NCBI GenBank assembly: GCA_027592755.1
Contig: JAQCLE010000010.1
Span: forward strand, 1 to 64,000
Origin: Bacteroidota bacterium
GTDB lineage: Bacteria > Bacteroidota > Bacteroidia > Cytophagales > Cyclobacteriaceae
Direction of reading: 5' to 3'
Length of the DNA: 64,000 nucleotides
Of this stretch, positions 5,648 to 26,316 are shown piece after piece. A program made the translations under genes and the position numbers. The notes under the pieces are model-generated. The model searched no databases, was not told where the DNA came from, and saw only the letters and a program-made list of their open reading frames with translations. Each line of letters opens with the position of its first letter. Within the stretch, counting starts at the first letter, position 1.

Positions 5648-5962
5648 TTATATTTTCATCTTGGAACTAGGCAGAGACTCTTCTACCCTTGTTTTTATCA
5701 CTTCACCAAATGCATCACTAAGGATGATCAGATGACTTACAGGGCGAGATATTAAATCTTCAAAACTTTCAACTGGAATTTCGAACCCGTCAAAATATTG
5801 ACCGTGGATGCCCGAGTTGTCATCGAACAATCTAACATTCGACTTTACTGATAGCATTGATAAATACGGCATTGCTCTTAAAGGAACATAACATCCCAGC
5901 GTATTCCCTGGCGATATGCCCTCTTCCATAAAATTGATTATCGAAGATGTTAATAGCTCCAT
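5648..5962 (-). CDS. C-methyltransferase C-terminal (Methyltransf_14-like) domain, separate frame
   Basis: A 104-residue open frame matches the C-terminal domain that usually follows the SAM domain in sugar C-methyltransferases. It has the GCYVPLRAMPYLS strand-helix start, LFDDNSGIHGQYFDGFEIPV (compare the D.....G....G..IP pattern) and a final strand before LSDAFGE. Its ATG lies 13 bases inside the end of the upstream SAM-domain gene, in the -1 register. Adding one A to the AGAAAATGG run would fuse both into a single 376-residue protein reading FSRKMELL. It is therefore either a frameshifted second half or a coupled second gene; I favour a frameshift or sequencing error. Confidence 0.7.
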   Translation of the reverse strand: MELLTSSIINFMEEGISPGNTLGCYVPLRAMPYLSMLSVKSNVRLFDDNSGIHGQYFDGFEIPVESFEDLISRPVSHLIILSDAFGEVIKTRVEESLPSSKMKI

Positions 5963-6879: not shown

Positions 6880-8223
6880 TTATGACTTCACTCTCTTCTT
6901 CTTGAACCTCTTCCCAAATATTTCTTCATTGCTAACTTGTATTTTTATTGGCACTTTATAAGAGGCTAAGTTACTTCGGCAGTGCATTTTTATCGCTTTG
7001 ATTATCTCCTTTACTTCTTGCCCTTTGGACAACAATACTTTAGCACATACAATATTTCCTGTTAGGGGATGTTTCTCTCCAAAAACAATAACATCTTCCA
7101 CCTCTTCAATTTCCAAAATCACATTTTCCACCTCTTGAGGAAATACTTTCTCTCCCCCAACATTGATCAATTCTGATTTTCGCCCCAATATCTTGAAATA
7201 ATCTCCTTTCACTTCTACTGAATCTCCAGTTTTAAACCAACCATCTTCGGTAAAAGGACTTGGCGCATTCAAATAACCTATCATTGCCGAATCCGACTTT
7301 ATTTCAAGCATATCATTTGATACTCGAACCTTATATCCTTCCCCTCCAATTTTTACCCATAACGAATCGTTATTCTCTGATTTAGACCTTAAAACCCCTA
7401 GCTCAATCAAGCCATAAGTCTGGTGAAATTTAATATCCGGGAAAATCTTATTCACCAATTGCAATAGGCTATTTGGCATGGGTTCGGCGCCATAAGTGAT
7501 TAGCCTAAGACTGGTGAGGTCATGTCTCTTATAAGCCCTGCTAGCCACCAACATATTCAGGAACGTAGGAGAAGTAGGTAACAGCTCAACCTGGTGCTCC
7601 TCTATTAACTTACAAACGTAATCTGGTGAGCGTTCCTCTAACAACACCAGCTTTCCCCCATTTGAAAGTATATGAAACATGGTATTAAGCCCACCCCAAT
7701 GATCAAACAATAGAAAATTGATTGTGACATAAATGGGCCTTCTGGTTTCAAACTTCTTAAGTAATTTATCAAAGTTATGAACTGCAGCTTTTGGCTTTCC
7801 GGAAGAACCGGAAGTAAAGAGAACTAGACCTGGTACATTCTCCTCATACAATTGTAAGTATAGCTCATTATCAGATTGTTCAGACTTGACTAATTCAATG
7901 TCATACTTATCCCCGATAATTCTAATGATGTAGTTGATGGCGGCAATCTCATACTTTTCATCGTTGATCTGCTGAAGTTTAATATCTAAGGGAACGATTA
8001 TGGATCGCTTATTAATAAGACTAAATATTAATGAAACTGATTCTATGGAAAAGTCTCCTTCAACGGCAAAAACACAGTTTTCTGGATAAGAAGACAACAC
8101 TCGATCCCATAATTCAATCCTAGAGAGCAGTTGATTATAAGTATGACTGTTCCCACGGTCAATTAAAGCCACATCATCCTTATAATTAGGTAAGTATTCG
8201 AAAATCTTTAGGTTACTTGCCAT
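6880..8223 (-). CDS. AMP-forming acyl-CoA/acyl-ACP ligase
   Basis: A 447-residue ANL-superfamily adenylating enzyme. It shows the P-loop-like LFTSGSSGKPKAAV at about 135-148, the YGLIELG core motif, TGDSVEVKGDYFKILGR with the ribose-binding Asp and hinge, and GGEKVFPQEVE. Near the C-terminus FGKRFKKK places the catalytic Lys of motif A10. It is shorter than typical members (500-550). Its start overlaps the ACP stop codon by 11 bases (ATGGCAAGTAA), which suggests translational coupling. The likely job is to activate a carboxylic acid and load it on the neighbouring ACP. The acid is unknown. Confidence 0.88.
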   Translation of the reverse strand: MASNLKIFEYLPNYKDDVALIDRGNSHTYNQLLSRIELWDRVLSSYPENCVFAVEGDFSIESVSLIFSLINKRSIIVPLDIKLQQINDEKYEIAAINYIIRIIGDKYDIELVKSEQSDNELYLQLYEENVPGLVLFTSGSSGKPKAAVHNFDKLLKKFETRRPIYVTINFLLFDHWGGLNTMFHILSNGGKLVLLEERSPDYVCKLIEEHQVELLPTSPTFLNMLVASRAYKRHDLTSLRLITYGAEPMPNSLLQLVNKIFPDIKFHQTYGLIELGVLRSKSENNDSLWVKIGGEGYKVRVSNDMLEIKSDSAMIGYLNAPSPFTEDGWFKTGDSVEVKGDYFKILGRKSELINVGGEKVFPQEVENVILEIEEVEDVIVFGEKHPLTGNIVCAKVLLSKGQEVKEIIKAIKMHCRSNLASYKVPIKIQVSNEEIFGKRFKKKRVKS

Positions 8224-8461
8224 TGATAGCTTCAGAAATAACGATTTTGATGATTTTGAAATTCAACATATTACCTACGTCATCATCGGGAATAGATACG
8301 CCAAACTGTTCTTCTAATGCAATAATCAGGTTAAGATGCCTTATGGAATCCCAATTTTCGATAGAATCAGTGGAACTCTCCTCAGTTACATCTTCTTCTG
8401 GTATTTCAAATACCACACTCAGGGTGTTTCTAATTGCTTCTTTTATTTGTATATCATCCAT
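8213..8461 (-). CDS. acyl carrier protein
   Basis: An 82-residue acidic, helical protein of ACP size. Ser39 in NWDSIRHLNLI is the predicted phosphopantetheine attachment site, in the standard position at the start of helix 2. FGVSIPDDDV is the usual loop before helix 3. The gene lies between fkbH-like 8475-10241 and the AMP ligase 6880-8223 and overlaps the latter. It is thus the likely carrier for the glyceryl or acyl unit made by those enzymes. It is a dedicated paralogue, not the housekeeping AcpP, which has the motif DSLD and sits with fab genes. Confidence 0.92.
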   Translation of the reverse strand: MDDIQIKEAIRNTLSVVFEIPEEDVTEESSTDSIENWDSIRHLNLIIALEEQFGVSIPDDDVGNMLNFKIIKIVISEAINGK

Positions 8462-8474
8462 TATTCAATGGTAT

Positions 8475-10241
8475 TTAAATATTGATATTTTTTTTGATGA
8501 ATTCTGGGCTGTTTGCTGAATAATCAAGAAGCTTTAATTTATAGGAAGTTTCATTATCAGTTTTCTGCGCAATGGCAAACCCATGGCTATGAAAAAAATC
8601 CTTAACCTGAGCATTTTTTTTAGTCTTTTTATATTTTGAGGTAATTGTCTGATAACCGTTTTCCTTAGAATGCATCAGCAAAAAGTCGAGGAAGCTATCC
8701 TCAACTCTCCTACCAAGTATCCGACAACTCAGCAGTAACGAATCGATCTCAACTGTTTTGTCATCTTCTTTCAATTCTTTAAGAATGCAAACTCCAGTAA
8801 TACCTGAATTCCCAAAGCGATCTGAAACATCAACAGAAAAAACGGACATTACTGGGTTATTTATAAACTGAAGAATATCATTCTGAGTATACCGATAAGT
8901 TGTTAAATTGAATTGATTGGTTTTTTCCGATAATTGCGCAATTCGAGCAACATGATCATCATTATCTTTGTAAATGGTAATTGTCGTCTCCAATGTTGAA
9001 AGATATGAATCAATATTGCCCATGCTCTCTCTAAGCTTAGATCTCCTGACCTGATCCTTATAGCCCATAACCTTTTTAAGGTCTTCACCAAGCGGTTGCA
9101 AATTGAAATATCTACGGGCAATTTCGATCATTAGCGAGGGGTACAACTCAATATCTTTCGGTACCAAAACTGTCAGGACTTCCGGAAGACTGCTATTAAT
9201 TAATCCAATCTCAAATTCAGAGTCATCTACAAAAACGAAACTATCAAGTCCAATATTCAGTTCATCAGCCAGAACTTTCAAATTATCGGATTTATTATTC
9301 CAATTGATTTTCTTGGCCACGATATTATCCTCACTGAGAACCATGTCGCGTTTATTTCTGAACACGCCCTCAACATCACGATGATTATTCTTGCTGCACA
9401 AACAGATCAGAACACCCTTTTTACTTAGGGATACAATAATGTTTTGGATGATATTATAATAAATCCCTATCTCACTTTTTGGGGAAATGTCAATACCCTC
9501 TAAACCGTCTTCTCCAATCACTCCCTTCCAAAGTGTGTTATCGCAATCCATAATCAGAGCTTTCTTTAGTCTACCAGTTCTTTTAAGTAGAATGTTGTGA
9601 ATAGAAGAAACATACTTTTTGAAAAAATCTATCTTATACAGTGCCTTATATCTATTAAATTTTTGTTTGTCAAGAGCATTACCAATGCCAAGAGAAGCTA
9701 CCAGACCCTTGGTATCTATGAGTTCAAAATTCTGCGGCTTATTTTCTTGGATGAAGCTGTTTAATTCGCCTTCGACGATTTGCACATTCGATTTAGTATG
9801 AATTAACTCATCGAACCCATATGAGGAAAATTTATTGAGCAGTACTAAGGATTGATCGGCGAGGTTTGAAAATAGGAGCCTAATCTCATTCTTATGTTTT
9901 TCTATAGTTTCATTCACCTCGCCCTCTTCCATCAACTCACATTTTATGAAGAAGTCATTAGTAAAATTGATCATGTCATAAAAGATGATCACCATATCGT
10001 GCTTAAGAACATTAAAGGAATCCTGCACTACGTTGTCATAATTGCCTATTGTAATGGTTGGATTGAGATTTATTGACTTTAAAGCGAATTCCAATATTTC
10101 CTTAATTGGATTTATAGTTAAATTAGTTAGTAGGTGAATTTTAAAATCAGCATCCATGGAAGTTTGATCAAACTTTCCATTTGCCTTCAAAATTTCAGGA
10201 TAGCTAAGTGAAGTCAGGTTATAAAGTGAATTGGCCTCCAT
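8475..10241 (-). CDS. FkbH-like HAD-IIIC family glyceryl-ACP synthase
   Basis: A 588-residue protein with the three-part layout of FkbH enzymes: an N-terminal domain (1-220), a HAD-IIIC phosphatase domain starting at LIMDCDNTLWKGVIGEDG (DxDxT at 232-236) and continuing to FVDDSEFE, and a C-terminal GNAT-like domain (about 430-588). Known FkbH proteins take 1,3-bisphosphoglycerate, dephosphorylate it and load D-glycerate on an ACP. The adjacent ACP (8213-8461) is 13 bases downstream. Its start overlaps the MaoC-SDR gene by 23 bases. In this polysaccharide setting it probably supplies a glyceryl-ACP used to decorate or extend an acyl substituent. Confidence 0.9.
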   Translation of the reverse strand: MEANSLYNLTSLSYPEILKANGKFDQTSMDADFKIHLLTNLTINPIKEILEFALKSINLNPTITIGNYDNVVQDSFNVLKHDMVIIFYDMINFTNDFFIKCELMEEGEVNETIEKHKNEIRLLFSNLADQSLVLLNKFSSYGFDELIHTKSNVQIVEGELNSFIQENKPQNFELIDTKGLVASLGIGNALDKQKFNRYKALYKIDFFKKYVSSIHNILLKRTGRLKKALIMDCDNTLWKGVIGEDGLEGIDISPKSEIGIYYNIIQNIIVSLSKKGVLICLCSKNNHRDVEGVFRNKRDMVLSEDNIVAKKINWNNKSDNLKVLADELNIGLDSFVFVDDSEFEIGLINSSLPEVLTVLVPKDIELYPSLMIEIARRYFNLQPLGEDLKKVMGYKDQVRRSKLRESMGNIDSYLSTLETTITIYKDNDDHVARIAQLSEKTNQFNLTTYRYTQNDILQFINNPVMSVFSVDVSDRFGNSGITGVCILKELKEDDKTVEIDSLLLSCRILGRRVEDSFLDFLLMHSKENGYQTITSKYKKTKKNAQVKDFFHSHGFAIAQKTDNETSYKLKLLDYSANSPEFIKKNINI

Positions 10242-11406
10242 TTATACGAATATTCTCTCCTGTAATAAAGTTTGATTTTACCGATGCCATAAATCCAACT
10301 GTACCGGAAATATCCTCGACTTTTGTCAATCGTCTTAGAGGAGTTTGTGAAGCTGTTATCAGCTTTATCTTTTCAGGAATATCAGCCGTCAATTCAGTAT
10401 CTGTGAGTCCGGGCGAGATCATGTTGACTTTAATCCCTTTTGGGCCAAGCTCTATCGCCATTGCCTTAACCAGACCATGCAGGGCTGCTTTGGCAGTTAT
10501 GTAATGCGCCCAGTCTGTATTTGGTTTGTCGACCGCTATGGTTCCGATGACAATTATTTTCCCATCCCCCTTTTCTAAGAGACCCAGGAATGTTTTGGAG
10601 GTTTCAAAAACAGATTTTACATGAAATTGTACCTGTTCTTGAAAGTCTGACCAGGTAAGTTTTGAAAAACTGATTTTAGGTATTTTAATAGATGAACAAT
10701 TCACCAGTACATCCAGTCTTGGAAAGTAGCGCTCAACCGCCCCCAACAAAGTATCGATATCTTCTTGTCGGGTAACATTCCCACTGACCATCGAGGCCTT
10801 GCCATCATTACCTTTAATGTTCGATAATATTTCTTCAGCTTTCTTCTTGTTTGAATGGTAGTGAACAAAAACATAGAATCCATCTTTGGCCAGTTCATAA
10901 CAAACAGCCCTTCCGATTCCTCCTGTTCCTCCAATCACGAGGGCAACTTTAATTTCTTTTTGTTTAGTTGATTGTGCTGAAACTTCTTCCAACATCTCAA
11001 TCATCTTTACTTTGGCCAAACCACGCGTTACAGTCTGTCTGTCTTGATTTTTAATCTCGATTTTAAGCTCAAGAATCTTTTCTGCATCAAATTTTTTGAT
11101 AACCTCTGCAGTGACTGTTAATTCATCGCCTACCCAAACTGGTAACAAAAACTCAAGACTTTGCGAAAACCACAAAGCTCCATCCCCCGGTAATTTAGTT
11201 CCAATAACTGTTGAAATGAATGAGGCACCCAGCATTCCATGCGCTACTGGTTTTTTATACGGAGTTGTCTTGGAAAATTCCGCATCGACGTGAAGCCTAT
11301 TGTCATCTCCCGTCAGATCAACAAATTTTTGGATGTCTTCTTGGGTTATTATGTGTTTGAGTTGTTCTTTATCCCCTATAGCAATACTCAAATACGATTT
11401 TATCAT
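10219..11406 (-). CDS. MaoC-like hydratase/SDR reductase fusion protein
   Basis: A 395-residue fusion. Residues 1-135 form a hot-dog MaoC domain with GDDNRLH (33-39), carrying the Asp/His pair of (R)-specific enoyl hydratases, and PVAHGML. Residues 150-395 form a classical SDR with GGTGGIG (159-165) and the catalytic YITAK (Tyr302, Lys306), ending in NGGQFTL like FabG. Together these could interconvert 3-oxo-, 3-hydroxy- and 2-enoyl-thioesters on a carrier. The gene follows KAS III (80 bases) and overlaps fkbH. The fusion order is less common than separate genes; substrate and direction are inferred. Confidence 0.87.
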   Translation of the reverse strand: MIKSYLSIAIGDKEQLKHIITQEDIQKFVDLTGDDNRLHVDAEFSKTTPYKKPVAHGMLGASFISTVIGTKLPGDGALWFSQSLEFLLPVWVGDELTVTAEVIKKFDAEKILELKIEIKNQDRQTVTRGLAKVKMIEMLEEVSAQSTKQKEIKVALVIGGTGGIGRAVCYELAKDGFYVFVHYHSNKKKAEEILSNIKGNDGKASMVSGNVTRQEDIDTLLGAVERYFPRLDVLVNCSSIKIPKISFSKLTWSDFQEQVQFHVKSVFETSKTFLGLLEKGDGKIIVIGTIAVDKPNTDWAHYITAKAALHGLVKAMAIELGPKGIKVNMISPGLTDTELTADIPEKIKLITASQTPLRRLTKVEDISGTVGFMASVKSNFITGENIRINGGQFTL

Positions 11407-11486
11407 TATTTTAAATTAGTATTTTTTTTTTAAATGTGCTACAATTAGACCCACGGTTAATCTCCTCTTTAAAGATTAAATAAGGT

Positions 11487-12482
11487 TTAAGTGAACTTCC
11501 AAATACTTGCACCAAAGTTGAATCCCGCACCAACTCCAGCAAATAGAACCGTATTTCCTGGTTTTATTTTACCAAATATCATGGCCTCACTGAGAACAAT
11601 CCCTACACTAGCTGAACCACAATTGCCAATTTCCTGAACATTAGTATAAGTCTTTTCACCAGGTATTTTCAATTTGGCCATAACATAATTTATCAGGTTG
11701 AGGTTTGCCTGATGAAACAAACAAAAATCAATATCATCTATGTCCATAGAAATTTTAGTCAACAAATCTTTTATGAGAATGGGCATATTGGTAACTGCCT
11801 GCTTCCATGTAGCTAAACCATTCATTTCCATGAAATCTATATCTGGAGAAAAACTCCTTTTACTAAAAGGAAAGCTAGATCCGCCTCCACGAAAACGAAC
11901 CGATTCATAGGTAGAGCTATCTGTTTTAAAGTGAGAATTAATTATACCTGACCCTTCGTCGACTTGTCCCAATAAAGCTACTCCCGCTCCATCACTGAAA
12001 AAAATTGCAGTTTCTTTATCTTTCGGATTTATATACCGAGTGTGTAATTCTACGCCTATGACAAGGGAGTATTTAACAGATTGGTCAACACGCATCCTAT
12101 CTGAGGCAATAGTAAGTGCTGTAATAAATCCTGTACAATTTGTATTAATATCAACTATTTGAGCTTTGGTACATTTCAATTCTTTTTGAATCTTGGCTGA
12201 AACTGGAGGAAACATATAGTCTGGAGAGAATGTCGCGACTGCGATTAAACCAATATCTTCACCTGAAATATTATTTTCTTCCAGAACTTTTCTCGCAGCC
12301 AAAATTGACATATTAGATGCTGAATCGTCTTCTGTTGCTATATATCTGCGTTTTATACCAGTTTTTGAAACTATCCATTCCGGGTTTACGTCAAGCAGGA
12401 TTTTACACAAATCCTCATTTGATTGGACATTGTCCGGCAGGTAATGTCCGGTTCCTACAATTCCAACTCCGTACTTAATCAT
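11487..12482 (-). CDS. 3-oxoacyl-ACP synthase III family protein (FabH-like)
   Basis: A 331-residue thiolase-fold enzyme with the complete KAS III triad: Cys116 in NTNCTGF, His257 in FHQANLN and Asn287 in IGNCGSAS. It ends GAGFNFGASIWKF as FabH proteins do. It overlaps the metallo-hydrolase gene by 8 bases. The KAS III/ACP/SDR neighbourhood is like the flagellin-glycan islands of Pseudomonas, where such genes make a 3-hydroxyacyl group for an amino sugar. With FkbH nearby, a role like the KAS III of tetronate pathways is an alternative. It is probably not the housekeeping FabH. Confidence 0.9.
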   Translation of the reverse strand: MIKYGVGIVGTGHYLPDNVQSNEDLCKILLDVNPEWIVSKTGIKRRYIATEDDSASNMSILAARKVLEENNISGEDIGLIAVATFSPDYMFPPVSAKIQKELKCTKAQIVDINTNCTGFITALTIASDRMRVDQSVKYSLVIGVELHTRYINPKDKETAIFFSDGAGVALLGQVDEGSGIINSHFKTDSSTYESVRFRGGGSSFPFSKRSFSPDIDFMEMNGLATWKQAVTNMPILIKDLLTKISMDIDDIDFCLFHQANLNLINYVMAKLKIPGEKTYTNVQEIGNCGSASVGIVLSEAMIFGKIKPGNTVLFAGVGAGFNFGASIWKFT

Positions 12483-13128
12483 TTAAACTGGTTTCCAAAA
12501 AACCAACAAGTTCAATATTATTTCTTTTGATTCCCTGTAAATATTCTGACTCACCATGTCCGGGAAGAACCAGGAATTTCCCTGGGAACATTGTAAACAT
12601 TTTGAGAATCGAATCCCTAAGCTTATCCCTATCTTCTCCCGGAAAACTATTAAATCCTAATCCCTTTTTATAAATGATATCACCTGAAAAAAGATTAGCC
12701 CCAGTTCGTATTACGCAACTCCCGTATGAATGGCCCGGTAAATTATAGATATCTATATCAAATCCATGAATAGCCTTCTTTTCGTAATCTTTAGTGAATA
12801 AAAAATCCGGAACTGGTGTTTGGATTCTTTTATCTATTCCCGCGACTTTCATGTAGAAATTAACTGATCTAGATATCTTTATATCCGCTTCATGCAAATA
12901 AAAAGGTATATCATTATACTTTTCCTTTAAAAATGAAACGCCAGCAATATGATCAAAATGGCCATGGGTGGATAGAATTGCCACTGGCTTTACGTTTATT
13001 TTCTGTATTTGATCATATATCCAACTTTCATCCAGACCTGGATCTATTATCAAACAATTTGTTTCATTGTGATCAGTTAAAATATAGGTATTAGAAGGAA
13101 ATATTTTATTCCTTATCAAATGAATCAT
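12475..13128 (-). CDS. metallo-beta-lactamase fold hydrolase
   Basis: A 217-residue MBL-fold protein with STHGHFDH at 53-60 (zinc ligands His55, His57, Asp59, His60), LPGHSYGSC, FSGDIIY and VLPGHGES in the family order. The layout is close to glyoxalase-II-like thioesterases. It sits between the SDR (1 base gap) and KAS III genes inside the acyl-carrier block. A thioesterase or editing role on ACP- or CoA-bound intermediates is therefore reasonable, but the reaction is not shown by the sequence. Confidence 0.87.
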   Translation of the reverse strand: MIHLIRNKIFPSNTYILTDHNETNCLIIDPGLDESWIYDQIQKINVKPVAILSTHGHFDHIAGVSFLKEKYNDIPFYLHEADIKISRSVNFYMKVAGIDKRIQTPVPDFLFTKDYEKKAIHGFDIDIYNLPGHSYGSCVIRTGANLFSGDIIYKKGLGFNSFPGEDRDKLRDSILKMFTMFPGKFLVLPGHGESEYLQGIKRNNIELVGFLETSLND

Positions 13129-13129
13129 A

Positions 13130-13834
13130 CTAATTTATCCCCCCCAAATACACTGTTTGAGATGTTATATAGGAACTTTTATCTGATGCAAAAAAATCTA
13201 TTACGTTAGTAATGTCATCAATATTAGCGTACCTCGGTACGGGTAATGCTTCAATTATTTCATCAATTTTTTCTCGAGGTAACTGGTTAAGCATATCCGT
13301 TTCAATCGCAGTAACTCCCAAAGTATTACAAGTAATGTTTAGCTTAGAAAATTCTCGTGACATTACATTAGCTAATGTTCTGACGCCAGCCTTTGTCGCT
13401 GCGTAAATTGAATCGCCCATAGGCTCCAAACTTGCCGCCATCGAGCCTATATTTATTATCCTACCATGTTTAAATTTTCGCATGATTTTAACTGCCTCGC
13501 GAGAAACAAAGAAAGTACCCAGCAAATTAGTATTTACCATATCTTCTGCATTCTGAATTGGCATAATCATAGCGTATTGTGATGTGAGTACCGCCGCATT
13601 ATTTATAACAATGTCGATCCTACCATGATCCTTCACAATTTTTCTGAAAGTTGAATGGATATTACTACCTTTTGATATGTCGCATGAATAATGAAAGTAC
13701 TTGCCATCACACGAAAAATCGGACTTACTCAATCCCAGTACAGTGGCTTCATTGGCAAGAAAGTATTTTACTAATTCTTTACCAATACCTCTTGATGCCC
13801 CAGTAACTAAAACAATTTTATCTCTATAATTCAT
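13130..13834 (-). CDS. SDR family 3-oxoacyl-ACP reductase-like protein
   Basis: A 234-residue classical SDR with TGASRGIG (11-18), NNAAV, and Tyr144-xxx-Lys148 in YAATKAG. The overall pattern is that of FabG. It starts within the ACP gene stop (ATGA overlap, 4 bases) and is followed after one base by the MBL gene, so all three are translated together. It likely reduces the KAS III product to a 3-hydroxyacyl-ACP for transfer to the glycan. Cofactor preference was not determined. Confidence 0.88.
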   Translation of the reverse strand: MNYRDKIVLVTGASRGIGKELVKYFLANEATVLGLSKSDFSCDGKYFHYSCDISKGSNIHSTFRKIVKDHGRIDIVINNAAVLTSQYAMIMPIQNAEDMVNTNLLGTFFVSREAVKIMRKFKHGRIINIGSMAASLEPMGDSIYAATKAGVRTLANVMSREFSKLNITCNTLGVTAIETDMLNQLPREKIDEIIEALPVPRYANIDDITNVIDFFASDKSSYITSQTVYLGGIN

Positions 13835-14133
13835 ATTTGTTTAGACAATTCCTCTATGTAATCGACTAAAGTCTGAATCGTATCAAATGGAGAAATTTCT
13901 CGAGTCATAGCCCTGTCGTCAGTTAAACACATTTCTTTATCATATTGATCAGCTAGGATTTCCTCTAAGTCAACAATTACCGAAACCAACGTCATTGAAT
14001 CTATCTCAGAGCCATTGCCAAATAGTATGGTTTTATTATCTACAATAAATCTGTCTGATTCTGGTAAAGTGTCTACAACTTCCTGAACAACATTCTTAAC
14101 TATCTCTCCAACTTTCATTTTAATAATTATCAC
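13831..14133 (-). CDS. acyl carrier protein (second, divergent)
   Basis: A 100-residue protein with ACP-like helices and the attachment-site context GSEIDSMTLVSVIVDLE, in which Ser46 is the predicted phosphopantetheine site. It is longer than a standard ACP, with an insert before the last helix (YDKEMCLTDDRAMT). It overlaps both neighbours by 4 bases (NeuD-like gene before, SDR after), which points to translational coupling. It is the likely carrier for the KAS III/SDR product and the donor for the acyltransferase encoded just upstream. Confidence 0.85.
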   Translation of the reverse strand: MIIIKMKVGEIVKNVVQEVVDTLPESDRFIVDNKTILFGNGSEIDSMTLVSVIVDLEEILADQYDKEMCLTDDRAMTREISPFDTIQTLVDYIEELSKQI

Positions 14134-14798
14134 AATATATTTGATACGTCCACAACATTTAAAACTCTAAAAGGGTTACCCATTCCATAACTGCCTTCGG
14201 AAATACTCCTGGTAACAATTGAGCCTACTCCAACAAAGACACCCTTTTCAACCCTTACATTTTCAGTAATACAAGACATGGCTCCGATGAAACAATTCTT
14301 ACCAATTGTTGCATTTGAGAGAACAAGACATAAACTTGTAATCATAGATTGCTCATGAATTCTTGAAAATGGCCCAATAGCAGAGTTTACAGCAACAATA
14401 TTAAATCCATCCAAAGTTGCATGATTGCCTATTGCCACTCCCGGATGAATAATGCACCCTGGTCCAATAATTGCACTATTATCAATAGAAGCATTTGGAT
14501 GAATAATACTCTCAAAGCACCCATAATCAAGTTCTGTATTAGATAAAATTTCATGCCTGATCAACCTCGTTTTCATGGATCCAATACCAAAGACAAATTT
14601 GACTTGGCCTTTAAATTCTTTGGCCTTTGATATTTTCCCCAGCACCGGGATCCCCATAATATTTGTATGATGTAATTTCTCATCGTCATCTAATATGCCA
14701 ACTACATCATATCGTTTATTAACAGCATTGATATCGGTTATTATTCCAATAATCTCAAAAAATGCTGTTGACCCTCCAATTATTACTAAATCGATCAT
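14130..14798 (-). CDS. NeuD/PglD-like hexapeptide-repeat acyltransferase
   Basis: A 222-residue protein with an N-terminal Rossmann-like half starting VIIGGSTAFFEII and ending near residue 95. A left-handed beta-helix follows with repeated (I/V)-G-x-x-x-x hexapeptides (SAIIGPGCIIHPGVAIGNHA). Relatives such as NeuD and PglD move acetyl groups to sugar hydroxyls or amines. Encoded directly upstream of and overlapping the second ACP, it may accept an acyl-ACP instead of acetyl-CoA. This is the best candidate in the window for placing the unusual acyl group on an amino sugar, but that is an inference from gene order. Confidence 0.83.
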   Translation of the reverse strand: MIDLVIIGGSTAFFEIIGIITDINAVNKRYDVVGILDDDEKLHHTNIMGIPVLGKISKAKEFKGQVKFVFGIGSMKTRLIRHEILSNTELDYGCFESIIHPNASIDNSAIIGPGCIIHPGVAIGNHATLDGFNIVAVNSAIGPFSRIHEQSMITSLCLVLSNATIGKNCFIGAMSCITENVRVEKGVFVGVGSIVTRSISEGSYGMGNPFRVLNVVDVSNIL

Positions 14799-14815: not shown

Positions 14816-16690
14816 TTAAAGAAACTTCCTACACCACCACTCAAAGTTCATAAATGACCAAATCAAAAGGCGGTGATTTATGTGATCTTCAGTGTGCTCC
14901 TTTACAATTTTTTGAATGTAATCGCCATTAATAAACTCGGTACTACAGGTGCTTTTGTTTAAGAGCAGTTCTTTAATATAACTGGCATTCTCTCCACGAT
15001 ACCAACTTTCGTCCGGCGCCGAAAATCCCTGCTTTTTCCGATTAACAATTTTCTCGGGAACAAAATCCATCATCGCTTTTCGAAGGACATTCTTCCCATC
15101 ATCAAACTGACGATATGCCCTTTTCTTCCCTGCAACATTTTCATCAATAGAGGCTATTTCCTTCTGTAAATTCCCGAGTTTGTGCCTAACCGGTATTTTC
15201 ATTGCAAAATTAACCAGGTCATTGTCCATAAAGGGAAATCTCTCTTCAAGCCCATGTGCCATAGCCAATTTATCTCCTACCAAAAACAGGCCTGGTAAAA
15301 ACGTTTTAGCTTCAAAATAAAGTGAGTTGCTTATGTGTTGCTCAGGTGTGTCATAACTTAATGAAGTATTGAACGTAAAGACCCTTTCAAATACTGTTCT
15401 TGGATAACTTGGATCAAGTTGATCAAATGTATCAGGTTGATACAATTCCTTGCGCTGATCATCCGGAACTAGCCTTTGCCAGAATCCGTAATACTGGTTA
15501 AAAAATTCCTGCTGGTTCAGAGAATCAAAAACTCGATAATAGCGCCATGGGTATCCACCGAAGAGTTCATCTCCTCCTGTCCCTTGCAAGCAAACCTTTA
15601 CAAACTTTGACGCTAATCTTGCTATATAATAATTGGGATAGGACATGCCTACCCTTAAATCTTCCAAATGATATACAAGTTTAGAAAGTGACCAACGTAA
15701 ATCTCCCGCATTCATAACTTGTTCGAAATGCTCTGTTTTGAAATGATTGGCCATTAGTTCTGCATCTCTCCTCTCATCATAATTGGCTTCGACGCCTGTC
15801 ACCTCACTCATATCAAAACCACATGTGAAGGTGGATAATCGATCTAATTGGGACGAAGCAACAGCGGTGATTGAACCACTATCCATCCCTCCAGATAAGT
15901 AGGAACCCACAGGAACATCCGATATCATTTGCCGAGTTACCGCCTGTTTGAATAGCCGCTCAGTTTCTTCCTTGGCATCATCAAAAGTCATTGTCTCATC
16001 TGGTTCTGTGAAATTATAATCCCACCAGGACTTATGTTTGACACCTAAACTCTTAGCATTCACTTTAACTGTATTAGCTGGGGGAAGCATTATGACACCC
16101 TTAAATAATGTCTGAAAGCTAAAGACATTTTGGAAAGTAAAATACTCATTCAAAGCCTCATAATTGACTTCGACTTTGAATTGTTTGCTAGCAATAATGG
16201 CTTTAATCTCACTTGCGAAAATCAGTGTGCCCCCACCAAACCAATAATACAGAGGCTTAATACCATACCTATCTCTACTTAAATAGAGTTGCTTCTCTTC
16301 GCTATTCCAGGCCCCAACAGCGAACATTCCATTTAATCTCTCAAAAAAAGAAATACCAAAAGCCGACAATCCTTCAACAATCACCTCAGTATCTGTATTA
16401 CTATAAAATGTATGTCCCAGGGAACGCAACTCCTGCTTTAAATCCAGAAAATTATATATACACCCATTAAACACAATGTTCCATTTACCATCTTTGGAAC
16501 TCATGGGTTGGGCTCCTTTTTCGGAAACATCAAGAATGGCAAGTCTTCGATGAGCTAATCCAATGTTATCTTTTATGTATATCCCGTTTCCATCAGGTCC
16601 CCTGTGTGAAATTGCTTCGGACATCCTAAGTATCTCATCTCTAACGACTGGAGCTCCAGTTAAATTAAAATATCCAACTATTCCACACAT
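14816..16690 (-). CDS. asparagine synthase-like glutamine amidotransferase
   Basis: A 624-residue full-length AsnB. The class II glutaminase domain starts at Cys2 (MCGIVGY). The synthetase domain has the PPi loop SGGMDSGS at 266-273 and the TGGDELFGGYPWR region. Residue 77 is Cys in FNGCIYN, where AsnB proteins have Glu in the glutamine-binding pocket, so glutamine use may be altered. It ends 17 bases before the NeuD-like gene. By analogy with WbpS-type enzymes in O-antigen loci it may amidate a uronic acid made by the WbpA-type dehydrogenase of this locus. A role in the ACP pathway is also possible. Confidence 0.9.
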   Translation of the reverse strand: MCGIVGYFNLTGAPVVRDEILRMSEAISHRGPDGNGIYIKDNIGLAHRRLAILDVSEKGAQPMSSKDGKWNIVFNGCIYNFLDLKQELRSLGHTFYSNTDTEVIVEGLSAFGISFFERLNGMFAVGAWNSEEKQLYLSRDRYGIKPLYYWFGGGTLIFASEIKAIIASKQFKVEVNYEALNEYFTFQNVFSFQTLFKGVIMLPPANTVKVNAKSLGVKHKSWWDYNFTEPDETMTFDDAKEETERLFKQAVTRQMISDVPVGSYLSGGMDSGSITAVASSQLDRLSTFTCGFDMSEVTGVEANYDERRDAELMANHFKTEHFEQVMNAGDLRWSLSKLVYHLEDLRVGMSYPNYYIARLASKFVKVCLQGTGGDELFGGYPWRYYRVFDSLNQQEFFNQYYGFWQRLVPDDQRKELYQPDTFDQLDPSYPRTVFERVFTFNTSLSYDTPEQHISNSLYFEAKTFLPGLFLVGDKLAMAHGLEERFPFMDNDLVNFAMKIPVRHKLGNLQKEIASIDENVAGKKRAYRQFDDGKNVLRKAMMDFVPEKIVNRKKQGFSAPDESWYRGENASYIKELLLNKSTCSTEFINGDYIQKIVKEHTEDHINHRLLIWSFMNFEWWCRKFL

Positions 16691-16696: not shown

Positions 16697-17836
16697 TTAA
16701 ATATTCCGCAATGTATTAACAACATATTGGAAGTCTTCTTCAGTCATTTTGTTATGGAGTGGAATCGCCATTGAAAAGTCATTGGCATTTTTTGCATTCA
16801 CGAAATCCTCCGGCTTTATTCCTAACCTTTTTGCATAGTAACTTAACATATGAACTGCATGAGTGCCTGGTCTGGTAGATATTCCTTTCTCAAGTAATAT
16901 CCTCATTATCTCGTTTCTTGGGGCCTGAGATTTTGTCTCATCAACCATGGTCACATATGATTGCCAACCGTGCCCATACTGTCCGGAATATTCCGGCAGA
17001 TGTAACCAATCCAAAGCCTTCAATTGTTCGTTGTAATACGATGCCCACTTAGCTCTTTCATTGATAAATTTATCCAGTTTCTTAAGTTGCACGTTGCCCA
17101 CTGCTCCTTGAAGATCTGTCATGCGATAGTTATAGCCAAGTTCATTGAAATCAGGTAGGATGAAAGGCTGGGGTCCATTGTGTCTTTGCTCTTCCGAAAT
17201 TGAAGCTCCGTGATTTCGAAGTATCCCCAATCTGGTGGATAGTTGATCATTATTTGTGGTTATCATTCCACCTTCACCAGTTGTGATCGATTTTCTAGGG
17301 TGAAAAGAGAAACAAGCCATCGTACCCAGACTACCAACCGGAGTTCCTTTATAAGAAGCGCCGGCTGCACATGCAGCATCTTCTATTAGAGCTATATCAC
17401 CTGATACTTTTTTAATTTCATCCATGTCAGCACTCAAACCAAAGAGATGTACACAGATAATTGCCTTGGTTTTTGACGTTATTTTATCTTTAAGCCCTAT
17501 AGGATCGATATTAAAAGTATGAGGATCAATATCCGTAAAAACCACTTTTGCTCCACAATACAACACTACGTTGGCGGTTGAAACCCAGGTAAATGCTGGA
17601 ACTATTACTTCATCACCCGGCCCAATATCTAATCCAACTAAGGACAAATGAAGGGCCGTTGTAGCGCTAGTAACTGCAACCGCATGTTTCACTTGATGTC
17701 TTTTGGCAAATTGTTCTTCAAATTCCTTAACCATCGGCCCGGAGGTCAACCACCCAGATGTAAGAGGCTCCTTTAAAGCATGCCACTCCTCCTCCCCAAG
17801 CTGAGGTTGTGATATTGATATCGTCTTTTTGCTCAT
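16697..17836 (-). CDS. DegT/DnrJ/EryC1/StrS-family PLP sugar aminotransferase
   Basis: The 379-residue protein has the fold-type I sugar aminotransferase pattern: TSATTALHLSL, GDEVIVPAFTWVSTAN, IEDAACAAGA and FSFHPRKSITTGEGG, in which Lys182 is the PLP Schiff-base residue. It ends 6 bases from the AsnB start and begins 22 bases after the epimerase. It likely converts a keto-sugar nucleotide to an amino sugar that the NeuD-like protein can then acylate. No 4,6-dehydratase is present in the window, so the keto substrate must be made elsewhere or by the epimerase-like gene beside it. Confidence 0.92.
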   Translation of the reverse strand: MSKKTISISQPQLGEEEWHALKEPLTSGWLTSGPMVKEFEEQFAKRHQVKHAVAVTSATTALHLSLVGLDIGPGDEVIVPAFTWVSTANVVLYCGAKVVFTDIDPHTFNIDPIGLKDKITSKTKAIICVHLFGLSADMDEIKKVSGDIALIEDAACAAGASYKGTPVGSLGTMACFSFHPRKSITTGEGGMITTNNDQLSTRLGILRNHGASISEEQRHNGPQPFILPDFNELGYNYRMTDLQGAVGNVQLKKLDKFINERAKWASYYNEQLKALDWLHLPEYSGQYGHGWQSYVTMVDETKSQAPRNEIMRILLEKGISTRPGTHAVHMLSYYAKRLGIKPEDFVNAKNANDFSMAIPLHNKMTEEDFQYVVNTLRNI

Positions 17837-17858: not shown

Positions 17859-18839
17859 TTACTTCTTATCAATCCCAGATTGAATTCGCCATTCAATCAA
17901 TTTCTGAAGCCCCTCTTCAAGTGAGTATTTATGATTAAAAGAGATGTCTCTTTTAGCCTTCTCAGCTGATCCTATTCTATTCTTAACCAATTGCCTTGCA
18001 TCATCAGCGGTGTATGGTATGTAATTAACTCTTAAATCAGATTTTTTCAACGTTAATATTGTCTCGCATAATTCCTTAATGGTCGTCTGCACTTCTGTAC
18101 CGACATTATAAAAACCAAAATCAACCGGACTGGTAAGCGCAGAAACATTTGCACTGGCCACATCTTCCACATAGACAAAATCGTAGGCTTGAGAACCATC
18201 ACCATTTATTTGTGGAGCCACATTTTCCTCAATTTTATTTAGCATTATTGGAACCACACCACTGTAAGCGGCGTGCTGGTCTTGTCCAGGGCCATAAACA
18301 TTCATGTAGCGAAGACCTACCACTTTCAATCCATAACGATCGTTAAATGCGGTGATCATTGCCTCCCCTGCTATTTTGGTTGCTCCGTAAAAATTCTTGT
18401 TGTTGAAAGGATGGTCTTCCTTCATTGGAACCTGCACCGCATCACCATAAACCGAAGCTGAAGATGAATAGACTAATTTCTTGATTTTGTGCTTGACACA
18501 AGCTTCCAACACATTGAAAGTCCCTCCAATATTCACTTCAAATGCGGTTCTTGGAAAGTCTTTACAATGTAGCAACCACATGGCAGAAAGGTGGAAAACA
18601 TAATCAATCCCTTGCATTGCCTTGTCTAATACATCTGTTTCCCTAATATCACCCCCATAAGGAAATATAGTGCATCGTGAATCTTTCAACGAATCAGATA
18701 AATTTTGAATCTTACCTCTCGTGAAATTATCATAAATGAGCACCTCCTTTACGGGATGCCTTAGCAGTTCTGATACCACGAAACCTCCAATAAATCCTGC
18801 ACCTCCAATAACAAGAATCTTTGAATTTTTTAATTCCAT
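17859..18839 (-). CDS. NAD-dependent nucleotide-sugar epimerase/dehydratase
   Basis: A 326-residue extended SDR with GGAGFIG (12-18), the YSSSASVYG Ser region and Tyr151-xxx-Lys155 in FYGATKIAGE. RYMNVYGPGQ is typical of UDP-sugar 4-epimerases and related decarboxylases. It lies between the aminotransferase (22 bases downstream) and the ABC ATPase (3 bases upstream). The pairing with a DegT aminotransferase suggests that it delivers the keto- or epimerised sugar that is then aminated. Exact reaction unknown. Confidence 0.88.
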   Translation of the reverse strand: MELKNSKILVIGGAGFIGGFVVSELLRHPVKEVLIYDNFTRGKIQNLSDSLKDSRCTIFPYGGDIRETDVLDKAMQGIDYVFHLSAMWLLHCKDFPRTAFEVNIGGTFNVLEACVKHKIKKLVYSSSASVYGDAVQVPMKEDHPFNNKNFYGATKIAGEAMITAFNDRYGLKVVGLRYMNVYGPGQDQHAAYSGVVPIMLNKIEENVAPQINGDGSQAYDFVYVEDVASANVSALTSPVDFGFYNVGTEVQTTIKELCETILTLKKSDLRVNYIPYTADDARQLVKNRIGSAEKAKRDISFNHKYSLEEGLQKLIEWRIQSGIDKK

Positions 18840-18842: not shown

Positions 18843-20135
18843 TTATTTAAGCTTAATTTTTTTCCAATTGGATCTTGGTTGTAAATATCCCTGGACGGTA
18901 GCCCAAGGGTAATCTTTACCTTTTTCTGCAGACTCCTTTCGGATCTTGAACCTCATGAAATTATCTATGAAATCAATATCCGAACCAGACTGAAAATGAG
19001 AGGCAGATAGGCCAAATGAATAATCTCCAGGTAAGAGAGTTTCATCTATTGATACAACTATCTCGTGTACTCCTTTTTCAATCAGTCGAGGCTTGAAATC
19101 AGTACTGCCAAGATCTTTTATTATTATTTGGCCAAACATGTTAACTATATATAAACAAATGACGACGTCATTTATATCCTGAAAAGCCTGAAATTGAAAT
19201 TTAACTTTCAGCATCTCTTGAAACAGAAATTCCCTTTTTATTTCACCATCACCTCCAATTGGCACCAAATATGTAAACCTTCCTTCTCCAGTACCATGTA
19301 TACTCAAATATTCGGGAATTGTACCATCTAGGGTACTACTGTCTGAACCGTCCGATAAATAGCTGGAAATTATATGGTCAGTCTCACCATGCTCCATCAC
19401 TTTTCCATTTTTCAGATAGAGAGCGGAACTACAAAGAGCTCTAATAGATGACATGTTGTGGCTTACGAAAATGATAGTTCTACCTCCTCCCTGGCCTAAA
19501 TCAGTCATTTTTCCAATACACTTCTTTTGGAATTCGGCATCTCCAACTGCCAATACTTCATCAACAATTAATACCTCTGATTCCAAATGTGCTGCAACCG
19601 AGAATGCCAGTCTGACATACATTCCTGAAGAATATCTTTTGACTGGGGTATCAATGAACCTTTCAATAGCAGCGAAATTAACTATCTCATCAAAACAACG
19701 TTGTACCTCATACTTGCGCATGCCAAGTATGGCACCATTTAAAAAAATATTTTCTCTCCCCGTTAATTCAGGATGAAAGCCGGTACCGACTTCCAATAAG
19801 CTTGCTATGCGACCTTTTAATTTTATTGTTCCATTTGTAGGTGATGTAACTCGAGAGAGAATCTTGAGTAAGGTGCTCTTGCCTGCTCCATTTCTACCGA
19901 TAATGCCTAATCTATCGCCCTGTTCGATACTGAGATTTATATCTCTAAGGCTCCAAACCATGTCGCTTATTCCTGCAACTGATCGGTCATTATCTTCAGT
20001 GATTTTTAAAAAAGGATCATCCTTTCCCCTGGTTAATGCCCACCACCTTTCGATATCTCTTGATAACGTTCCAGTGCTGAATTGCCCTAATTGATATGCC
20101 TTTGAGAGGTTCTCTATCTTTATAACAATGCTCAT
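18843..20135 (-). CDS. ABC transporter ATPase for polysaccharide export (Wzt-type)
   Basis: A 430-residue ATPase with Walker A GRNGAGKS at 80-87, signature YSSGMYVRL at 168-176 and Walker B VLIVDE at 188-193. TGRENIFLNG and the 180-residue C-terminal extension (beta-rich, about 290-430) are marks of Wzt proteins that recognise the glycan end. It starts with the last base of the permease stop codon (TGATG), so the two subunits are translationally coupled. It drives export of the completed glycan across the inner membrane. The extension suggests recognition of a modified terminal residue. Confidence 0.94.
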   Translation of the reverse strand: MSIVIKIENLSKAYQLGQFSTGTLSRDIERWWALTRGKDDPFLKITEDNDRSVAGISDMVWSLRDINLSIEQGDRLGIIGRNGAGKSTLLKILSRVTSPTNGTIKLKGRIASLLEVGTGFHPELTGRENIFLNGAILGMRKYEVQRCFDEIVNFAAIERFIDTPVKRYSSGMYVRLAFSVAAHLESEVLIVDEVLAVGDAEFQKKCIGKMTDLGQGGGRTIIFVSHNMSSIRALCSSALYLKNGKVMEHGETDHIISSYLSDGSDSSTLDGTIPEYLSIHGTGEGRFTYLVPIGGDGEIKREFLFQEMLKVKFQFQAFQDINDVVICLYIVNMFGQIIIKDLGSTDFKPRLIEKGVHEIVVSIDETLLPGDYSFGLSASHFQSGSDIDFIDNFMRFKIRKESAEKGKDYPWATVQGYLQPRSNWKKIKLK

Positions 20136-21010
20136 CAGACCGTATCTACAAAGCTCTTCTCCACTTTATTAAAAATGATCACTCCGGCAAATAGGATTAC
20201 TAATGTTATAAGAAGACTGTAAGCGAACTTTGATAGATCGAATACACCTTCGCCAAACAAACCCAAACGCATGCCTTCCACAATGAATGAAAGTGGATTT
20301 GCCGCTATTATTGAATACCATTTGCCGGAGAGACTACTTAATGGATAGACCACCGCAGTGCCATACATAAGAAGTTGAACACTAAATTGAACTAACAATG
20401 CCAAATCACGATATTTAGTAGTTAAGGCGGATACAATCATTCCTATTCCTAAGCCCAATAAGGCCAATACGGCCACTAAAATTGGATAGAGAAAGACGTA
20501 ACTAGTGATATGAGGTTTCCAACCAGTTAGAATGAAGAATATGTAGACTATGATAAGCAGAAGAAATTGCACACCAAATCTTACTAAATTGGAAACTACA
20601 ATGCTTAAAGGCATAATTATCCTAGGAAAATAAACTTTCCCAAATATTGCTACATTGTCCTGAAACACCCTGGATGTCTTAGTGAGGCAATCTGAAAAGT
20701 ATGTCCAGGCAGTAATCCCAGTTAGATAAAACAATGGTTGGGGTATTCCATCTGTTGATAATCCGGCTAAGTTTCCGAAAACAAACACATAAACTCCCAT
20801 AGTAAATATCGGCTGGATAAAAAACCATATTGGGCCAAGAATGGTCTGTTTATAAAAAGAAATAAAATCTCTTTTTACAAACATCAGCAGAAGGTCGCGA
20901 TATTGCCATATCTCTTTGAGTCTAAGGTCCAACAGACCCGATTTAGACTCAATAATTTGATCCCAATCTCCGGGAGATTCAGCGGGTACATCCACTTCTA
21001 TTATAGTCAC
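20135..21010 (-). CDS. ABC transporter permease for polysaccharide export (Wzm-type)
   Basis: A 291-residue ABC-2 type permease with about six hydrophobic segments. It is preceded by a cytoplasmic helix containing WQYRDLLLMFVKRDFISFYKQTILGPIWFFIQP, abbreviated here by its hallmark KRDF...YKQT.LGP pattern. AANPLSFIVEGMRLGLFG is the conserved C-terminal element. It forms the membrane half of the Wzt/Wzm exporter with the next gene. Its presence, with no Wzx or Wzy seen, indicates ABC-dependent export of a chain built in the cytoplasm. Confidence 0.93.
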   Translation of the reverse strand: MTIIEVDVPAESPGDWDQIIESKSGLLDLRLKEIWQYRDLLLMFVKRDFISFYKQTILGPIWFFIQPIFTMGVYVFVFGNLAGLSTDGIPQPLFYLTGITAWTYFSDCLTKTSRVFQDNVAIFGKVYFPRIIMPLSIVVSNLVRFGVQFLLLIIVYIFFILTGWKPHITSYVFLYPILVAVLALLGLGIGMIVSALTTKYRDLALLVQFSVQLLMYGTAVVYPLSSLSGKWYSIIAANPLSFIVEGMRLGLFGEGVFDLSKFAYSLLITLVILFAGVIIFNKVEKSFVDTV

Positions 21011-21011
21011 T

Positions 21012-21977
<966 letters not shown>

Positions 21978-22553
21978 CTAAATGATCTTACTTACCTGAT
22001 TATCTTGAAGAGAATATTTTTGACCAGATTCGGAGCAAACGGCAATTCCATCTTCGAAATGAAGCTTGTGGCCGAATTCGCTCATCCAACCTGTTTGCTT
22101 TCCGGGGTTACCAACTACCAGGGCATAATCAGGAATCGTCTTCGTTATAACTGCGCCTGCGCCAATAAATGCATACCTACCAATGTCATTACCACAAACA
22201 ATGGTGGCGTTAGCTCCAATTGTTGCTCCTTTACCTACATGGGTTTTTGAATATGCATCTTTTCTGATAATAGCACTTCTTGGATTAATAACGTTAGTAA
22301 AAACCATCGATGGACCAAGAAAAACATCGTCATCACATGTCACACCTGTATAGATTGAAACGTTGTTCTGCACTTTCACATTATTTCCAAGAACAACTTT
22401 TGGTGAGACTACCACATTCTGACCGATATTACAATTTTTACCAATCTGACAATCAGGCATGATATGACAGAAGTGCCATATCTTCGTCCCATCTCCTATT
22501 TTACAACCTTCGTCTATTACGGCAGAGGGATGTCTATAAAAACTGTTCTTCAT
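21978..22553 (-). CDS. hexapeptide N-acetyltransferase (WbpD/WlbB-like)
   Basis: A 191-residue left-handed beta-helix protein. Successive hexapeptides run from [15 protein letters not shown] through [17 protein letters not shown] to [34 protein letters not shown] is the loop typical of WbpD/WlbB. Known homologues acetylate the 3-amino group of UDP-GlcNAc3NA. It is encoded between the WbpB-like and WbpA-like genes. The mid-sequence start alternatives are poor because the first hexapeptides would be lost. Confidence 0.91.
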
Positions 22554-22580
22554 AATATCACGTTATTTCCCAACCAAGCC

Positions 22581-24969: not shown

Positions 24970-25014
24970 TATTAATTTATTCGGTAATGAACCCGCTATC
25001 CTTAGAGAGGTAGA

Positions 25015-26190: not shown

Positions 26191-26316
26191 CTTATTTGAC
26201 AGTTACTCAACACCTGAATATAAATATAAAACATATTCGTATATGTATAGCTTCGCCCTCTCAGTCCCATTTTTGGGCTTATTCTTATTAATATCAAACT
26301 CAATGTTCTAGCGGTG

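Follow-up and report, generated by a model that had tools for sequence, protein, structure and literature searches.

A recurrent FkbH-containing gene block in a Cyclobacteriaceae glycan locus is a candidate acyl-supply cassette for an amino sugar of an exported glycan

What do stand-alone acyl carrier proteins (ACPs), an FkbH-type acyl-loading protein and a β-ketoacyl synthase III (KAS III) do in the middle of a surface-polysaccharide locus? The question is raised by a 64,000-nucleotide stretch of a Cyclobacteriaceae genome (Bacteroidota; assembly GCA_027592755.1, contig JAQCLE010000010.1, positions 1 to 64,000), referred to here as the window. Its list of open reading frames (ORFs) has nine co-directional genes filling positions 6880-14798 on the minus strand (Table 1). 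The initial annotation of this DNA had counted ten co-directional, mostly overlapping genes; nine are found, all on the minus strand, and five of the eight junctions are overlaps (spacings of -4, -4, +1, -8, +80, -23, +13 and -11 bp in transcription order, the widest gap being the 80 bp from KAS III to MaoC-SDR). The families it named are present, as judged by models or alignment: FkbH, KAS III, a short-chain dehydrogenase/reductase (SDR), a MaoC-SDR fusion, a metallo-beta-lactamase-fold (MBL) hydrolase, an AMP ligase and the ACPs. We consider it likely that an amino sugar of the exported glycan receives an acyl group from this block. With somewhat less assurance, we favour a reading of the nine genes as an acyl-supply and acyl-transfer cassette for the amino sugar of a surface glycan exported by an ATP-binding cassette (ABC) transporter.

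Much of the gene set recurs in other genomes. Relatives of FkbH were searched in 395 genomes of the phylum, 25 of which match, the window's own included; the wider surroundings of 24 of these (not G123) were classed by BLAST and by eye. The two closest FkbH relatives have MaoC-SDR, FkbH and ACP1 in the same order as in the window. Three MaoC-SDR queries against a collection of species genomes gave 30 confirmed loci, 14 of which match nearly the full MaoC-SDR length at 44-60% identity, in records from Bacteroidota, Ignavibacteriae, Bdellovibrionales, Omnitrophota, Nitrospinota, Thiothrix, SAR324 and Chlorobiota. These 14 were annotated together with L062, which ends at a contig edge, and the 15 other partial matches were left out. 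A class-wide MaoC-SDR search of 395 genomes added strong matches in G482 and G462. Duplicates were counted once (L041 is the L031 record and L106 the L046 record).

Eight of the window's nine genes, all but the NeuD-like one, form a recurrent collinear block in the order ACP2-SDR-MBL-KAS III-(methyltransferase)-MaoC/SDR-FkbH-ACP1-ligase. This full form is complete in the window, L031/L041 (Ignavibacteriae), L040 (Bdellovibrionales), L051 (Bacteroidia) and L105 (taken as Bacteroidia), and L039, a record titled as a Chryseobacterium gleum metagenome-assembled genome, carries it from KAS III through FkbH, where the contig ends. The genome search for co-occurrence proposed in the initial annotation finds eight genes together in four other complete loci, while the sugar neighbours vary and a NeuD-like gene is not constant. 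A short form, in 13 loci, has MaoC/SDR, FkbH and mostly ACP1, with no match for KAS III, ACP2, MBL or the stand-alone SDR. Because these four genes are all absent from the short form and all present in the full form, they come and go together. By gene content, then, the block joins two separable modules, MaoC/SDR-FkbH-ACP1 and ligase-SDR-ACP, plus KAS III and MBL. A second arrangement is seen in L089 (G205), which reads NeuD-ACP-KAS III-SDR-MaoC/SDR-ACP-FkbH-phosphopantetheinyl transferase-DegT; L091 (G197) resembles it, with a phosphopantetheinyl transferase confirmed by Pfam, but there a 138-residue glyoxalase-family protein replaces MaoC/SDR.

The cassette is thinly spread within its lineage. 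Its AMP ligase profile, at E 1e-80, matches one of 60 family genomes, the window's own, and the ACP2 profile matches nine of 395 phylum genomes, the full set being found in the window and G093 among the seven surroundings examined (not G271 or G306); these counts led us to reject the cassette as a general lineage trait. KAS III identities ignore taxonomy, the Bdellovibrionales and Ignavibacteriae proteins being 78% identical and the window protein 54-57% identical to all four others, and together with the ligase count this would fit lateral spread, a reading to be taken with caution since the named full-form records are all metagenome-assembled. In the MaoC-SDR tree the full-cassette proteins form one group (97/95), and the window stands beside five methyltransferase-bearing loci (92/95, under the tool's mark for firm support). 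The methyltransferase concerned (~309-333 aa) lies between KAS III and MaoC-SDR in L031/L041, L039, L040, L051 and L105 and is absent from the window cassette; where it is present, it suggests a methylated acyl group. Just beyond the window's block, a methyltransferase gene (Methyltransf_23) occupies 5950-6768 on the minus strand, followed by a 104-aa ORF (5648-5962) in another frame, with a 13-base overlap and no Pfam match; the two may be one gene split across two frames or two coupled genes. BLAST at E 1e-4 did not match the methyltransferase of the L031 cassette to this Methyltransf_23 protein.

The sugar genes around the cassette change from locus to locus. Upstream of the L031 cassette are two FdtA-family genes, and downstream of it a GNAT and a DegT-like aminotransferase gene; in L051 there is again an FdtA-family pair and a GNAT, with no aminotransferase match in the 21 kb examined. 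Both FdtA pairs were confirmed by Pfam. L040 has cytidylyltransferase, NeuB-family, GNAT, PglD-type and Antibiotic_NAT genes, and L105 combines a GNAT and a formyltransferase with an epimerase/DegT pair whose members are 41% and 44% identical to those of the window. In the window itself the DegT aminotransferase scores below every specific cut-off listed, so that the DegT superfamily alone is assigned; it probably installs the amino group destined for acylation. The accompanying epimerase-like SDR has an SSSASVYG motif, not the Thr-Asp-Glu of dehydratases. We take this motif to be epimerase-like. A dTDP-glucose 4,6-dehydratase is encoded elsewhere in the same genome. A candidate N-acyltransferase is found beside all five complete cassettes, drawn from three fold families: the NeuD-like protein in the window, an Acetyltransf_3 GNAT in L031, L051 and L105, and an Antibiotic_NAT protein in L040. 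Mainly for this reason, the cassette reads as a maker of an activated acyl group that would be handed to the local sugar machinery, and more broadly as a portable unit that makes acyl groups for the amino sugars of glycans sent to the surface. Relatives with GNAT or AAC(3)-type proteins in its place show that the cassette can do without NeuD. The initial annotation had tied an ACP-based acyl line to the glycan, and this is upheld by the collinear recurrence, the varied sugar genes, the candidate N-acyltransferases and the lack of polyketide synthase (PKS) or nonribosomal peptide synthetase (NRPS) among the window proteins scanned; the glyceryl or hydroxyacyl product it named is one that we, too, infer.

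A system of this kind has a precedent. The O-antigen of Flavobacterium psychrophilum carries a 3,5-dihydroxyhexanoyl group on Qui2NAc4N, for which an ACP (wfpD), ketoacyl synthases (wfpC and wfpE), a reductase (wfpF) and a PglD-like protein (wfpG) have been proposed (PMC6519341). The genes wfpC-wfpG are proposed to provide a ketoacyl synthase, a dedicated ACP, a ketoreductase and a PglD-like transferase for a short hydroxyacyl group on a 4-amino sugar (PMC6519341), and the glycan locus of the window likewise combines these four kinds of protein with a sugar aminotransferase. The two are likened here by description, not by sequence, and the F. psychrophilum locus is Wzx/Wzy-dependent whereas the window has Wzm/Wzt. 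The main text of PMC6519341, searched for the words FkbH and MaoC and not for AMP ligase or MBL, contains neither of the two. Comparable substituents are described elsewhere: D-glyceroyl occurs on QuiNAc4N in Pragia fontium, and 3-hydroxybutyryl is common (PMC10609480, PMC3210612). Among the matches listed from the open-access literature, judged by title and abstract opening, none described an FkbH-containing acyl cassette for a surface glycan. The initial annotation knew of no described pathway with this set; that holds for the FkbH branch and not for the kind of pathway, which had already been proposed for F. psychrophilum (PMC6519341). On this comparison, the novelty is a putative glycerate branch, marked by FkbH, added to a known type of N-acyl supply cassette.

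The FkbH branch is well conserved. The window FkbH scores 276.7 bits with TIGR01686 (cut-off 146.65) and 65.2 bits with the HAD-IIIC model (cut-off 35.75), and is matched by NCBIfam models only, none from Pfam. Its Asp232/Asp234 (the HAD pair) and Cys506 (in a C-terminal SCRxxGR) are invariant in all 15 aligned sequences, and it is the single FkbH match in its own genome. The MaoC-SDR fusion is 43-59% identical to 15 relatives, with Asp34 and His39 of MaoC and Lys306 of the SDR invariant in 16/16 and Tyr302 of the SDR nearly so; its structure model has low confidence across the MaoC core, and no relative was found in the viral contigs searched. The residues checked in FkbH, KAS III, MaoC and SDR are those regarded as catalytic in these families. 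FkbH lies within 2.5 kb of MaoC-SDR in all 18 loci other than the window, 13 of them without a KAS III match, a count in which L041 and L032 are seeds picked for carrying FkbH, L043 is too short to judge KAS III, L044 has just 1.6 kb upstream and L112 is a weak member (30% identity, a 26% ligase match and another SDR). ACP1 is present in 16 of these 18, the contigs of L039 and L043 ending before its position. Four of the nine genomes matching in the class-wide search (L108-L111) have separate MaoC and SDR genes, with no FkbH match in the DNA fetched, and were excluded from the fusion count. Because MaoC-SDR adjoins FkbH even where KAS III is absent, its substrate is most likely the FkbH product.

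Two further proteins accompany FkbH. A protein of 130-138 aa lies beside FkbH or an ACP in several glycan-type loci (L036 8396-8800, L091 6141-6557 and, by eye, L038 11405-11818 and L082); two of these four were scanned, both matching Glyoxalase_4 of Pfam, and the protein may be a further FkbH-associated partner. A ~300-aa protein with no Pfam match follows seven of the 13 short modules (L032 13302-14219, L048 13275-14183 and relatives). An AlphaFold2 model of this ~302-residue protein has a mean pLDDT of 65, and its top Foldseek matches are GNAT-family acetyltransferases and N-myristoyltransferases with TM-scores <0.4, from which it is tentatively GNAT-like.

The residues checked in the second branch are kept as well. 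KAS III scores 294.5 bits with NF006829 (cut-off 249) and is 53-57% identical to its cassette counterparts, and the Cys-His-Asn triad reported by the initial annotation is confirmed as Cys116, His257 and Asn287, invariant in 4/4 cassette proteins. The genome's two other KAS III matches (L028, L030) are 32-34% identical to it; on these identities, the window KAS III is a dedicated paralogue distinct from both. The stand-alone SDR is 57-63% identical to its counterparts, with Tyr144 and Lys148 invariant in 4/4, and the MBL retains HGHFDH, His133, Asp150 and His191 in 4/4. The two serine sites noted earlier in the ACPs are also there, as D-S at Ser39 of ACP1 and I-D-S at Ser46 of ACP2. The latter has no Pfam or NCBIfam match; it is 43-51% identical to the ACPs in the same position of L031, L040 and L051, in which I-D-S is invariant. 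Searched at E 0.01, the ACP2 profile has a single match in the window's genome.

What could the two branches make? Gene content, residues, gene order, sugar-context swapping and modularity are observed directly, and upon them we infer each enzymatic step and the identity of the acid. On the route that we prefer, FkbH would transfer a glyceryl group from 1,3-bisphosphoglycerate onto ACP1, and MaoC-SDR would convert glyceryl-ACP1 to lactoyl-ACP1 by dehydration and then reduction: a glyceryl thioester carries a beta-hydroxyl, loss of water would give a pyruvoyl group (as the enol) and reduction would give lactoyl. A lactate starter from FkbH has reportedly been proposed in bryostatin synthesis. 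Because a KAS III, a second ACP and an SDR are present, we propose one malonate extension and a ketoreduction. KAS III would condense the C3 starter with malonyl on ACP2, and the stand-alone SDR would reduce the beta-ketone to a C5 dihydroxyacyl-ACP2 (3,4-dihydroxypentanoyl), or, if the glyceryl group went in unconverted, the product would be 3,4,5-trihydroxypentanoyl-ACP2. The AMP ligase might load ACP2 or re-activate free acid, the MBL might clear stalled thioesters, and the NeuD-like protein would place the acyl group on the amine provided by the neighbouring aminotransferase. That the glycerate and KAS III branches build one acid at all is, to our mind, evenly balanced, and a C5 dihydroxyacyl group is a tentative, rather improbable identity for it. 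The boldest picture, of a glycolysis-primed mini polyketide line (lactoyl-ACP, one KAS III extension, a C5 polyhydroxyacyl group on a surface amino sugar, perhaps methylated in those relatives with the additional methyltransferase) that moves between phyla as one cassette, is likewise speculative and we hold it with some doubt.

Several observations weigh against the proposed cassette and route. A malonyl transacylase is not among the nine genes, and KAS III enzymes usually prime with acyl-CoA, making an ACP1-bound starter an assumption. No glycan structure was found for this strain or for any cassette-bearing strain. All four named full-form records (L031/L041, L039, L040 and L051) are metagenome-assembled. 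In the FkbH tree, the window protein falls among the short-form proteins, and a full-form FkbH group appears in 6% of bootstrap trees; the window cassette may be a mosaic, or the signal of this tree may be weak. Finally, the NeuD-like protein has GPFS where 7/7 NeuD/PglD-like comparators have a His, and alignments to VioB and to PglD-type chains agree that this His is missing. We presume the PglD-position His to be catalytic. Another His lies a few residues on (IHEQ) and may take over, the mechanism may need no base, or acyl transfer may fall to a different enzyme.

Its family assignment is correspondingly partial. Like the PglD/VioB/NeuD N-acyltransferases, the protein has PglD_N, hexapeptide repeats and a sugar aminotransferase gene close by, and its best PDB match is VioB (7txp, E 1.9e-13); it differs from them in scoring 128.3 bits with TIGR03570, under the NCBIfam cut-off of 160.8, and in lacking the family His at the aligned position. 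The NeuD/PglD-like acyltransferase of the initial annotation thus stands as to its PglD_N and Hexapep domains but reaches neither the family cut-off nor the family His. Because of this missing His, its predicted role as the transferase is less secure than earlier thought.

The AMP ligase bears on how the acyl group would be activated. It is 58-59% identical to its cassette counterparts and 38-41% identical to ligases on plasmids, where an SDR and an ACP or ACP-like gene come after the ligase; its profile gave no PDB match at E 1e-40. Three loci whose fetched DNA shows no FkbH, L078, L080 and L079 (the last also carrying a NeuD-like gene), have an ACP2-SDR-ligase trio. Plasmid pTML1 and a Bradyrhizobium plasmid have ligase-SDR-ACP trios as neighbours of PKS genes, again with no FkbH in the DNA fetched. 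A Burkholderia plasmid is a weakened example: the ligase and SDR are followed by an unannotated gene, without a Pfam match, that we aligned with the ACPs, and the next large gene is not a PKS, being annotated as an SDR oxidoreductase. The trio on the thiomarinol plasmid pTML1 resembles the window's in having an AMP ligase (38% identical), an SDR (25% identical) and an ACP gene, and differs in lying beside an annotated polyketide synthase, in gene order and in having no FkbH annotated in the stretch; BLAST at E 0.01 did not match its ACP to either ACP of the window. We take the mupirocin counterparts of its ligase, SDR and ACP to be MupQ, MupS and mAcpD. A term search of the pTML1 paper (PMC3069032) did not return these names. 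By analogy, the trios favour a ligase that loads an ACP. A further plasmid arrangement, in Rhizobium (L116 5306-7991), places an SDR, a ligase (36% identity to the window ligase) and a Hexapep protein in a row, adjoining a gene annotated as a CmlS halogenase.

The activation could also run the other way, with the MBL freeing the acid, the AMP ligase making its coenzyme A (CoA) ester and the N-acyltransferase using acyl-CoA instead of acyl-ACP. This is a variant of the cassette reading and does not exclude it. MBL and ligase occur together in 5/5 complete full cassettes, and the flanking transferases belong to the left-handed beta-helix, GNAT and AAC(3) families, which we presume to be mostly users of CoA esters. 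Against this, the ligase-SDR-ACP trios without an adjoining MBL fit ACP loading, and direct transfer from ACP is what has been proposed in PMC6519341. We regard the CoA variant as possible, though doubtful.

Rather unlikely, in our view, is that the block makes two separate acyl groups, each bound for its own amino group: a glyceryl or lactoyl group from FkbH/ACP1/MaoC-SDR and a 3-hydroxyacyl group, such as 3-hydroxybutyryl, from ligase/ACP2/KAS III/SDR. The modularity described above is what lends this idea weight, as each half occurs alone (13 loci have MaoC/SDR-FkbH-ACP1 and no KAS III match; L078-L080 have ligase-SDR-ACP and show no FkbH). The WbpB/D/E-like genes of the locus could provide a second amino sugar, and 3-hydroxybutyryl is a common substituent (PMC3210612, PMC10609480). 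However, the halves are interleaved in one fixed order in 5/5 complete loci, with KAS III, MBL, SDR and ACP2 on one side of FkbH and the ligase on the far side, and the window block has a single NeuD-like gene.

A free secondary metabolite such as a tetronate is highly unlikely. FkbH, ACP and FabH-like KAS III are core parts of tetronate ring formation, all present here, and the tetromadurin operon pairs the same three, with Mad7 (FkbH), Mad8 (stand-alone ACP) and Mad16 (FabH-like KAS III) proposed as the tetronate makers (PMC7489565). In the window, however, no PKS chain is seen, and MaoC-SDR, a second ACP, SDR, MBL, ligase and sugar transferase replace the Agg4/Agg5-type pair (Mad17/Mad18); no Agg4/Agg5-type protein was named in general scans, run without a dedicated model. 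IF-2 and an SLBB export protein account for the two longest window ORFs (879 and 856 aa). Scans of 10 proteins in 34925-57964 and of 20 others gave no PKS or NRPS (the PKS search covered window proteins only), and the other cassettes adjoin sugar genes. Least probable of all is that the FkbH product serves KAS III as an unusual extender of the hydroxymalonyl type and not as a starter: FkbH/ACP sets do give methoxymalonyl-ACP in polyketide pathways (PMC7489565), but the two further dehydrogenases needed from glyceryl-ACP to hydroxymalonyl-ACP have no clear counterpart among the nine genes, and a MaoC dehydratase is conserved instead.

The acyl cassette stays our preferred reading, and its surroundings agree with it. 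Upstream of the nine-gene block, in the same direction, lie AsnB-like, DegT, epimerase-like SDR, Wzt, Wzm and WbpB/D/A/E-like genes, the Wbp names being assigned from Pfam class and gene order, and beyond them come Wzz, NusG-like and SLBB/Poly_export genes; the polysaccharide context with ABC export described in the initial annotation is borne out. Because core genes (IF-2, NusA and tRNA synthetases) lie further out in the window, this is probably a chromosomal glycan locus.

Table 1. Genes of the nine-gene block and neighbouring features in the window
Feature	Coordinates	Strand	Basis
NeuD/PglD-like left-handed beta-helix acyltransferase, putative amino-sugar N-acyl transfer	14130..14798	-	PglD_N, Hexapep, TIGR03570 below cut-off
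ACP2, Ser46 within GSEIDSMTLVS	13831..14133	-	alignment to cassette ACPs
FabG-like SDR, putative beta-ketoacyl-ACP2 reductase	13130..13834	-	adh_short
MBL hydrolase, putative acyl-thioester hydrolase	12475..13128	-	Lactamase_B
KAS III	11487..12482	-	NF006829
MaoC hydratase/dehydratase-SDR fusion	10219..11406	-	MaoC_dehydratas 19-110, adh_short 153-346
FkbH-type HAD/acyl-loading protein, putative glyceryl-ACP1 synthase	8475..10241	-	TIGR01686
ACP1, Ser39 within WDSIRHL	8213..8461	-	PP-binding
Acyl-AMP ligase, putative ACP2 loader or CoA ligase	6880..8223	-	AMP-binding, AMP-binding_C
AsnB-like glutamine amidotransferase, glycan-locus context	14816..16690	-	TIGR01536 427.1 bits, cut-off 267.1
DegT/PseC/ArnB-type sugar aminotransferase	16697..17836	-	PseC model TIGR03588 327.7 bits, below cut-off 423.5
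Extended SDR, epimerase-like, paired with aminotransferase	17859..18839	-	SSSASVYG motif
Wzt (with C-terminal domain Wzt_C) and Wzm ABC exporter, context	18843..21010	-	
WbpB-, WbpD-, WbpA- and WbpE-like genes, di-N-acetylated uronic acid pathway, context	21012..24969	-	Pfam class and order

Two other features of the window were recorded. Features of O-antigen export and of capsule export are mixed in the export region (18843-30002, minus strand), where Wzm/Wzt stand beside Wzz-like and NusG-like proteins and an SLBB/Poly_export protein of 856 aa. The protein encoded near the core genes at 44020-46011 on the plus strand is 663 aa long and combines WD40 repeats with a caspase-like Peptidase_C14 domain.

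Since the two modules behave in an all-or-none way, the sequence of reactions proposed for the cassette can be put directly to the test. If the proposal is correct, the cassette would offer gene-level predictors for acyl groups that are now mostly found by chemical analysis, and it would tie central glycolysis to the decoration of surface sugars through a polyketide-like step.

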